Origin: Longispora fulva
GTDB taxonomy: Bacteria; Actinomycetota; Actinomycetes; Mycobacteriales; Micromonosporaceae
Direction of reading: 5' to 3'
Assembly: GCF_015751905.1 (NCBI RefSeq)
Contig: NZ_JADOUF010000001.1
Span: 4,588,001 to 4,652,000, forward strand
Length of the DNA stretch: 64,000 nucleotides
The translations under genes and the position numbers were made by a program. Under the pieces are notes generated by a model that was not told where the DNA came from, ran no database searches, and saw nothing but the letters and a program-made list of their open reading frames with translations. This document shows positions 20,872-28,200 of this stretch, piece by piece (position 1 is the first letter of the stretch; each line of letters opens with the position of its first letter).

Positions 20872-21603
20872 ATGGCAAAGCTGAACCAGATCATCGCCGT
20901 CGAGAAGGGCGTCAAGAGCAAGTCCTTCCACGAACTCACCGAGGCGCACCACGCTGTGCAGAAGCCGGCCCTGCTGTCCGGCATCTCGCGCAGCTACCAG
21001 CCGAAGGATGAGGAGGGCGAGCAGCTGCCGCCGGAGTCCACGAAGGTCCAGACCCGGGCCGAGGACGTGCTCCGCCAGGTCGGGGTCGGGCTCACCAAGC
21101 TGTTCGACGTGACAGCCTCGAAGGACGCCACGAACTGCGTGGCCCGCGCCGACGTCGTGGTGGATGAGCGGGTTCTCCTTTCGGACGTGCCGGTGACGTA
21201 TCTGCTGTTCCTGGAGAAGCAGCTCACCGACCTGCACACGTTCGTGAAGAAGCTGCCGGTGCTCGACGCCGCGGAGTCCTGGGTGTTCAACGACTCGGCC
21301 GACTGCTGGTCCACCGAGCCGGTCCGCACCATCCGGACGAAGAAGGTGCCCCGCAACCACGTGAAGGCCGAGGCCACCGAGAAGCACCCGGCCCAGGTCG
21401 AGGTCTACTACGAGGACATCGCCATCGGCTACTGGACGACGGTCAAGTTCTCCGGCGCGCTGCCCGCCAAGCGGGTCGCCGAACTCCTCGAGCGGGTGGA
21501 GAAGCTCCAGCAGGCGGTCAAGTTCGCCCGCGAGGAGGCCAACAACACCGAGGTGACCGACCGCAGCACGGGCGACAAGGTTTTCGGCTACCTGTTCCGG
21601 TAG
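20872..21603 (+). CDS. Unassigned 243-aa protein preceding the tRNA-like RNAs
   Basis: A 243-aa soluble protein starting MAKLNQIIAVEKGVKSK. It is Lys/Glu-rich with several basic patches (SISRSYQPKDEEGEQL-type segment, TIRTKKVPRNHVK), no signal peptide, no membrane helix, and a helical C-terminus (LLERVEKLQQAVKFARE). I believe similar proteins are common in actinomycetes, but I know no function. The stop codon is followed directly by about 390 bases of structured RNA with two permuted tRNA-like units and a terminator, all on the same strand, so protein and RNA probably share a transcript. A role in binding or maturing these RNAs is inference. Confidence 0.8.
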   Translation: MAKLNQIIAVEKGVKSKSFHELTEAHHAVQKPALLSGISRSYQPKDEEGEQLPPESTKVQTRAEDVLRQVGVGLTKLFDVTASKDATNCVARADVVVDERVLLSDVPVTYLLFLEKQLTDLHTFVKKLPVLDAAESWVFNDSADCWSTEPVRTIRTKKVPRNHVKAEATEKHPAQVEVYYEDIAIGYWTTVKFSGALPAKRVAELLERVEKLQQAVKFAREEANNTEVTDRSTGDKVFGYLFR

Positions 21604-21675
21604 CCGAGGTCAGACACCTCCGGGGAGCCGTGGGTGCGCGGAAGCGCAAGCTGAAACTGAGACGTTCAGACTGAT

Positions 21676-21758
21676 GGGGCAAGGTACAGGTGGAGGTTCG
21701 AGTCCTCCCTCCCGCACTCGCGCGGGAGTGGCCCAAATATGGCAGAGGCAGCCGCCCC
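21676..21758 (+). tRNA. Circularly permuted tRNA-like unit P1
   Basis: T stem GGAGG/CCTCC (21692-21696, 21704-21708) with loop TTCGAGT; then CTCCCGC (21709-21715, acceptor 3' strand), A (discriminator), a linker of six bases counted from 21716, then GCGGGAG (21722-21728), a perfect 7-bp partner. T8, then D stem GCC/GGC (21731-21733, 21747-21749) with A14, A15 and GG in the loop. The anticodon helix is irregular: GCC (21751-21753) with GGT (21683-21685), an AA bulge, and GCCCC (21754-21758) with GGGGC (21676-21680). No CCA is encoded. Order T half then D half is the reverse of a normal tRNA gene. Confidence 0.55.
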
Positions 21759-21814
21759 GCAAACTCAGACTCTCGCTCCAGATTCAGTATTCGCCGCCGA
21801 ACATCGGATCAACC

Positions 21815-21922
21815 GGTCACAGACTGACCGCAGTCGAGATACGAGTTCAACTCTCGTTGCCCGCTCTTCCTGCGGGCGTGGTCTAACGGCATGACGCGAC
21901 TGCTTCAACGTGATCTGTGATC
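21815..21922 (+). tRNA. Circularly permuted tRNA-like unit P2
   Basis: T stem ACGAG/CTCGT (21841-21845, 21853-21857) with loop TTCAACT; acceptor 3' strand TGCCCGC (21858-21864), T73, 7-base linker, acceptor 5' strand GCGGGCG (21872-21878): seven pairs, one of them G-T. T8, D stem GTC/GAC with loop TAACGGCAT. The anticodon stem is complete: CGACT (21897-21901) with AGTCG (21832-21836), extended by two pairs to GCAGTCG/CGACTGC, variable loop AGAT. An outer helix GGTCACA (21815-21821) with TGTGATC (21916-21922) closes the unit. G1-C72, C2-G71, G3-C70 and T73 resemble glycine tRNA identity. Confidence 0.6.
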
Positions 21923-21961
21923 TTAAACGTGCCGGTGTGAGCAATTGGGCGGCAACGCGAG

Positions 21962-21988
21962 GCCCGGGGGTTGGATACACCCCCGGGC
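21962..21988. terminator. GC-rich hairpin ending the RNA locus
   Basis: GCCCGGGGG (21962-21970) pairs perfectly with CCCCCGGGC (21980-21988), loop of nine bases. Only two T follow on the plus strand. It separates the RNA locus from the convergent anti-sigma gene and may serve both. Confidence 0.7.
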
Positions 21989-21996
21989 TTCACCAT

Positions 21997-28063: not shown

Positions 28064-28200
28064 GGCGACAGGAGTTCCTGGCTTCCCGGGACCCCTGGGC
28101 GGCGCACGGCGGCACCACCCACCCGGGTGACAGTGGCGGGACCGCGCCGGACTCGCACCGGCTTCCTCCACACGTCGCCCCATATGGCGTGCCCACTCTC
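28064..28200 (-). promoter_or_regulatory. Cobalamin riboswitch
   Basis: On the minus strand the core reads GGAAGCCGGTGCGAGTCCGG and continues with GGTCCCGCCACTG, which is the conserved adenosylcobalamin aptamer core, and then the B12 box AGCCAGGA...CCTGTCGCC (28083-28064). It is followed by the cobN ribosome binding site and start at 28021, so it is well placed to control cobN translation. Confidence 0.93.

Follow-up and report, generated by a model that had tools for sequence, protein, structure and literature searches.

YrlA RNAs bind Ro60 and PNPase. The parts of the literature that deal with their architecture describe a stem in which the RNA's two ends pair, joined to a tRNA-like domain (PMC8394870), in a domain order that is circularly permuted relative to tRNA (PMC11472068, PMC8394870); described Y RNAs are, in the same account, single pieces (PMC8394870). 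Two other kinds of permuted molecule bear on the locus reported here, both covered in sections of PMC3978253. In two-piece tmRNA, a permuted tRNA-like domain has its anticodon arm replaced by a long helix and the pieces require no ligation. In the permuted tRNAs of algae and archaea, ligation yields a continuous molecule that has an anticodon.

We analyzed a stretch of 64,000 nucleotides of the Longispora fulva genome (hereafter the window; contig NZ_JADOUF010000001.1 of assembly GCF_015751905.1, positions 4,588,001 to 4,652,000 of the forward strand), for which the first-pass annotation had proposed two circularly permuted tRNA-like genes, knowing of no described permuted elongator-type tRNA in bacteria. 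YrlA, which that annotation left out, is an RNA of bacteria already described as circularly permuted relative to tRNA (PMC11472068, PMC8394870, in the parts that treat its structure). A literature search on permuted tRNA and Y RNA found, in the portions of the sources that it covered, no description of a module like the one described below, in which the RNA accompanies a gene for a DUF7873 protein.

Results

Two units lie in succession on the forward strand of the window, each beginning with its T arm and 3' acceptor strand, which a linker separates from the 5' acceptor strand and the D arm (helices numbered as in the covariation analysis):

21692-21708, +: unit 1 T arm; stem GGAGG (21692-21696) and CCTCC (21704-21708) around TTCGAGT; helix 1
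21709-21715, +: unit 1 3' acceptor strand, CTCCCGC; helix 2, change on both sides in 6 of 7 pairs
21716-21721, +: unit 1 linker, ACTCGC, 6 nt; 21716 is N73 (A); without CCA in the window copy
21722-21728, +: unit 1 5' acceptor strand, GCGGGAG; helix 2
21729-21749, +: unit 1 D arm; T8 at 21729, A14/A15 at 21735-21736, GG at 21741-21742; helix 3, invariant
21841-21857, +: unit 2 T arm; stem ACGAG (21841-21845) and CTCGT (21853-21857) around TTCAACT; helix 4
21858-21864, +: unit 2 3' acceptor strand, TGCCCGC; helix 5, change on both sides in 7 of 7 pairs
21865-21871, +: unit 2 linker, TCTTCCT, 7 nt; 21865 is N73 (T); without CCA in the window copy
21872-21878, +: unit 2 5' acceptor strand, GCGGGCG; helix 5
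21879-21895, +: unit 2 D arm; T8 at 21879, GG at 21888-21889; helix 6, one-sided changes only

Direct reading of the sequence bore out the first-pass annotation on these points: the order of parts is exact to the base, the positions and the linker lengths (6 and 7 nt) are correct, and the tRNA invariants are kept in both units. Both permuted tRNA-shaped pieces are real. ARAGORN reported no tRNA in the window and no tmRNA, and Rfam returned no tRNA at gathering scores at 21676-21922 and no tmRNA match (RF00023) at the locus. On comparative grounds, we read both units as parts of one conserved, unannotated noncoding RNA of about 370 nt, whose flanks are predicted to pair into long conserved stems at the place of the anticodon arms:

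21620-21991, +: whole RNA, inferred extent, from the fold and the RNAalifold consensus structure of a 36-row alignment, A1 (86 pairs, 52 with change on both sides); ends unmapped
21650-21690, +: unit 1 long stem, 5' strand (CTGA-rich tract and anticodon-position strand); pairs with 21750-21788; flank helices 1-4
21750-21788, +: unit 1 long stem, 3' strand; holds the conserved motif TCGCTCCA; A1 and flank covariation
21793-21840, +: unit 2 long stem, 5' strand; flank helices 5-7, change on both sides in 15 of 20 pairs
21896-21953, +: unit 2 long stem, 3' strand; holds the conserved motif CTTAAACG; A1 and flank covariation
21959-21991, +: 3' hairpin, terminator-like, no T run; RNAalifold columns 463-495

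An unguided fold of 21620-21993 drew both heads with the long stems beneath them, at a free energy of -159.6 kcal/mol (z -2.54) that none of 100 shuffles reached. By eye, the unit 1 stem of the window copy is irregular at the anticodon position (GCCGCCCC versus GGGGCAAGG). A terminator search gave no match at the 3' hairpin. Short motifs that are not tRNA-like, at 21763-21777 (the TCGCTCCA region) and 21925-21933 (the CTTAAACG region), are kept from Streptomyces to actinophages. A hexamer-periodic tract, AARYTN in about four repeats, precedes unit 1 (window 21650-21675; A1 columns 126-153) even in distant phages, among them loci L167, L216 and L222; the strands of the unit 1 stem in L167 and L216 seem similar to each other rather than complementary. 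The tract has the look of Lys-Leu codons, a coding reading that was dropped because length differences of +1 and +2 among the actinobacterial relatives in A1 break the frame. The idea that the flanks form a self-splicing or hammerhead-like element was also rejected: the core letters are unconserved by eye and no Rfam ribozyme matched at the locus. Elsewhere in the window, a cobalamin riboswitch (28073-28167, -) lies upstream of a reading frame that we take to be cobN-like.

The RNA occurs once in its own genome. A second genome of the genus has a homologue of 71% identity in which the two acceptors and the two T stems differ by compensating changes, except that a single unit 2 acceptor pair (A versus C) is not kept. 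At the level of the family, an initial BLAST matched 354 of 354 genomes at E values up to 10 and its tally was not used; loci were taken from this DNA search and then fetched, which gave 111 loci with a few double entries (L001 and L003 are both the window locus; L023 and L107 are another such pair). A scan for permuted units detected at least one in 104 of the 111. Only unit 2 was detected in L096, L097, L099, L102, L342 and L343, six loci that belong to a single genus. Dereplication reduced 94 two-unit stretches to 83, of which 36 were aligned as A1; loci were left out when one of their units had diverged or escaped detection.

Because the rows of A1 are loci that the scanner had recognized (36 of 83), the pairing of the permuted units in it is an inflated figure: the 30 pairs are 99.5% paired, and 19 of them have changed on both sides. 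Shuffling lowers this value to 87.1% (sd 0.6; 0 of 500 shuffles as high as observed), and sliding the partners by 1-3 columns lowers it to 37.3-53.5%. The flank pairs stand outside the scanner's selection criteria, and there 18 of 35 pairs have changed on both sides, with 95.7% paired versus 85.3% after shuffling. Neither test reaches every helix: the unit 1 D arm never varies and helix 3 is therefore without a covariation test, while the three outer flank helices of unit 1 (helices 1-3) hardly vary and hence offer no pairs changed on both sides, of which flank helix 4 has three. The first-pass annotation had proposed a comparison of the pairings in relatives, and the acceptor and T stems are compensated both in the same-genus homologue and in A1. 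A linear tRNA made from the 5' strand of unit 1 and the 3' strand of unit 2 was rejected, with 72.2% of its positions paired versus 99.5% for the permuted arrangement; this is slightly above its own shuffles (68.1%), and no more than 6 of the 38 viral sets and 2 of the 27 genome sets reach 6 of 7 pairs.

In many soil bacteria and phages, the RNA directly follows a gene for a protein without assigned function, which at this locus is:

20872-21603, +: DUF7873 (PF25283) gene, 243 aa; Pfam E 2.6e-106; likely protein partner

Of the 104 RNA-bearing loci, 102 have DUF7873 upstream in the same orientation (the exceptions are L108 and L111). The gene was found in 113 of the 354 family genomes, where a few of the matches are fragments. 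A sample of the phylum contained it in 7 of 396 genomes, namely Longispora fulva and six genomes of one genus from another family; a unit downstream was predicted from the protein alone and was found in all six. Likewise, one or two units were present in 11 of 11 family loci that have DUF7873 and no listed strong DNA match. Once phage members were part of the search alignment, relatives were found encoded on 368 viral and 583 genome stretches. Among the best 80 of each, at least one unit lay within 600 nt downstream of DUF7873 in 78 genome and 69 viral loci, and two units in 65 and 41, respectively; the scan found no unit within that distance in 11 of the 80 viral loci. In the same two sets of best 80, control scans gave upstream units in 2 viral and 0 genome loci, none on the reverse strand of either, and none in shuffled sequence.

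The protein itself offers few leads. Its predicted structure (pLDDT 92.0, pTM 0.66) had no structural match at E up to 0.001 in the PDB or among viral models, its sequence matched no known fold (best E 0.12), PHROGs and NCBIfam hold no family for it, and a literature search on DUF7873 found no paper among the sources that it covered. The synteny suggests that the RNA is probably the partner of DUF7873, and gives fair grounds for regarding the protein as a putative RNA binder. Some copies of the gene are apparently damaged: L045 (genome G097) retains unit 2, but next to it only the last 34 residues were matched, and at G214:C1:30919-31617 a second copy is apparently in pieces. Among 14 control genomes, Deinobacterium chartae has both the sole DUF7873 match and the sole match to TROVE, the Ro60 domain.

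DUF7873 is also encoded in 73 annotated phage records. Ten phage loci were opened, of which seven have a clear unit in the gap 3' of the gene and one (L151) is doubtful; the scan found none in L154 or L156, the latter showing one by eye. In five phage loci (L149, L150, L153, L155 and L156), DUF7873, annotated as "hypothetical protein", sits inside or beside an array of tRNA genes and is followed by an unannotated gap of roughly 400-530 nt. In Rhodococcus phage NiceHouse, a gene for a band-7-like protein comes soon after DUF7873.

The linkers between the acceptor strands carry signals reminiscent of tRNA processing. CCA stands right after N73 in 48 of 96 distinct viral linkers and 33 of 115 distinct genome linkers, where letter shuffles predict 3.3 and 4.6; for units 1 and 2 separately, the counts are 21 and 18 of 38 viral pairs and 19 and 5 of 27 genome pairs. 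Among 110 viral units, CCA falls at offset 2-4 in 59, and none of the remaining offsets up to 12 has it in more than 3. The acceptors themselves turn over, with 25 and 30 distinct 5' acceptor strands in the 38 viral sets. RNase P prefers U at position -1, and T precedes G1 in 62 of 96 viral and 44 of 115 genome linkers, against 20% and 11% inside linkers, although C nearly equals T at this position in genome units (39 versus 44 of 115). Linkers of at most 5 nt number 1 of 96 (viral) and 1 of 115 (genome), in contrast to 16 of 28 at Ro60 loci, where the scan admitted 2-nt linkers as the DUF7873-side scan did not. A simple end test found CCA encoded in 18 of the 54 ordinary tRNAs of the Longispora fulva genome that were compared; its absence from the window units would thus be nothing out of the ordinary for a functional tRNA. 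Since many relatives do have CCA right after N73, a genuine tRNA-like 3' end may be present. We weigh the CCA, U-1 and linker-length statistics as moderate evidence for removal of the linkers, which look as if they were cut by tRNA enzymes.

Discussion

Comparison across relatives gives us high confidence in the structure of this RNA and its linkage to DUF7873: the fold, its conservation and its tight association with the upstream gene are all established at that level. We consider it likely that the locus encodes a single noncoding RNA, about 370 nt long, which carries two heads that mimic tRNA, is linked to DUF7873 and is built on the architecture of Y RNAs. Each head would be a permuted tRNA body set on a long stem that the flanking sequence builds; DUF7873 would bind the long stems, filling the position of Ro60 in Ro60-Y RNA particles, while proteins that recognize tRNA would be recruited by the heads.

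The likeness to YrlA is one of design. The window RNA has the permuted domain of T arm, acceptor and D arm, and the stem formed from 5' and 3' flanks occurs in it twice within one RNA. It differs from YrlA in carrying two heads in one unit, in its tie to DUF7873 and in its occurrence in a genome without detectable Ro60 (no PF05731, or TROVE, match in the Longispora fulva genome or its same-genus genome). TROVE was matched in 93 of 354 family genomes, and the 113 family genomes with DUF7873 divide into 66 without it and 47 with it. In Ro60 (TROVE) loci of the family, the scan detected a permuted unit in 23 of 30, and the Rfam YrlA model (RF02553) matched 17 of the 19 submitted to it with E values no higher than 0.5 (best 9e-7), with a best score of 45 and none of the Ro60-linked RNAs at the cut-off of 69 bits. 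The window RNA scored 22.8 bits against the same cut-off, a match that is non-discriminating because places in a tRNA array score as high: a whole-genome search listed six other places up to 24.7, the best within a tRNA array and the window not among them. The match was therefore dropped as proof of membership, and by RF02553 score alone the window RNA is not a YrlA member. Additional differences are the stem GGTGCCCGGTGCGCAGG / TCTCGGGCACC of Ro60 loci, which by eye is absent from the window RNA family, and the longer linkers, CCA and U at -1 of the DUF7873-linked RNAs. On these comparisons, we take the DUF7873-linked RNA to be of the Y RNA kind, yet of a lineage separate from the Ro60-linked Y RNAs. 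Successive permuted Y-type units, two per locus, also occur at the Ro60-linked loci L126 and L108 (genomes G351 and G350).

Two-piece tmRNA offers a second parallel, in that its permuted domain also sits on a long helix in place of the anticodon arm. The window RNA differs in having two heads and no identified tag reading frame. Alanine tRNA has G:U at 3:70, and here too the window RNA departs from two-piece tmRNA, with G:C at that position.

Within the DUF7873-linked reading, what becomes of the linkers is less certain. They may be excised by RNase P and by the enzymes that process tRNA 3' ends, so that each head would end in a genuine CCA. The RNA might then work in up to three pieces held together by its stems, like two-piece tmRNA. 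The fullest form of this idea, which we advance tentatively and rate somewhat below even chances, is a module shared by phages and chromosomes in which DUF7873 carries a two-headed RNA whose heads are cut free at the linkers by these enzymes, end in CCA and can be charged or bound like tRNAs; next to Y RNA and two-piece tmRNA, it would constitute a third permuted RNA of tRNA type in bacteria, one whose particle has two acceptor ends. Alternatively, the partner and architecture may be the same and the linkers uncut, with CCA a relic of tRNA ancestry or part of a loop. Such a sealed RNA would agree with the single-piece Y RNAs described in the part of PMC8394870 that covers them, and with the absence of CCA from the window units and half of the viral units. 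We nevertheless regard it as rather unlikely, given that CCA is confined to the tRNA position while acceptor sequences turn over and that U at -1 is enriched.

Another alternative is that the units are true permuted tRNA genes, whose anticodon region would be spliced and ligated and whose linker would be removed, producing two decoding tRNAs (Leu-like and Gly-like). As in algal and archaeal permuted tRNA genes, the 3' half comes first and a 7-bp acceptor spans a short linker; flanks that pair beside the junction would be expected of permuted pre-tRNAs too, CCA is encoded, and the genome has two RtcB ligase genes. Among the tRNAs of Longispora fulva, tRNA-Leu is the closest to unit 1 for 50 of the 51 genome cases and 30 of the 38 viral ones (by a small lead in the window, 25 versus 23), A73 is present in 26 of 38 viral and 25 of 27 genome pairs, and column 249 of A1, a candidate U33, is T in 33 of 36 rows. 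By contrast, unit 2 has no comparable T column at position 33 (our numbering of the 36-row alignment) and no settled isotype: the window copy is nearest to tRNA-Gly (24 versus 18), a result repeated in only 15 of 49 genome and 6 of 38 viral cases, and U73 occurs in 28 of 38 viral and 18 of 27 genome pairs. Furthermore, the stems continue for tens of conserved nucleotides and covary, 72 tRNA-model matches lie elsewhere in the genome, unit 1 went undetected in six loci that retain unit 2, and a search for the archaeal-type splicing endonuclease (PF01974) had 0 matches in this genome, with 4 archaeal controls positive; the algal and archaeal permuted tRNAs, according to the section of PMC3978253 on them, are ligated to a continuous tRNA. 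This evidence leaves the elongator-type tRNA gene of the first-pass annotation unsupported, and we think it improbable that the two units decode.

Among the tRNA genes proper of Longispora fulva, an 11-gene array at G000:C1:2098800-2100200 (L320) has several unusual members, and both L320 and L322 include tRNA-Leu genes that measure 74-76 nt and lack a long variable arm.

The position of the RNA could instead point to a cis-acting element of the DUF7873 transcript, involved in autoregulation or mRNA stability, and not to an RNA acting in trans. It lies always on the same strand and just 3' of DUF7873, in 102 loci, and no promoter was matched between the gene and the RNA in a scan confined to sigma-70 consensus sites, a limit that weakens the point. 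The double tRNA mimicry (T54-T55-C56, G18-G19, CCA) exceeds what a 3' UTR needs, and we give a purely cis-acting role little credence. Two linear tRNA pseudogenes lying side by side, decayed or brought about by chance, would account for the tRNA-like parts and for the irregular unit 1 stem of the window copy, but they are in practice refuted by the covariation, the poor linear pairing and the conservation beside DUF7873.

If the DUF7873-linked reading holds, a protein family without known function would gain an RNA partner, and the permuted tRNA-mimic design of Y RNAs would exist without Ro60. The location of several phage copies within tRNA gene arrays hints at a role in the supply, sensing or protection of tRNA. 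Should the heads carry CCA ends, what charges or binds a two-ended RNA of tRNA type would become a direct question.
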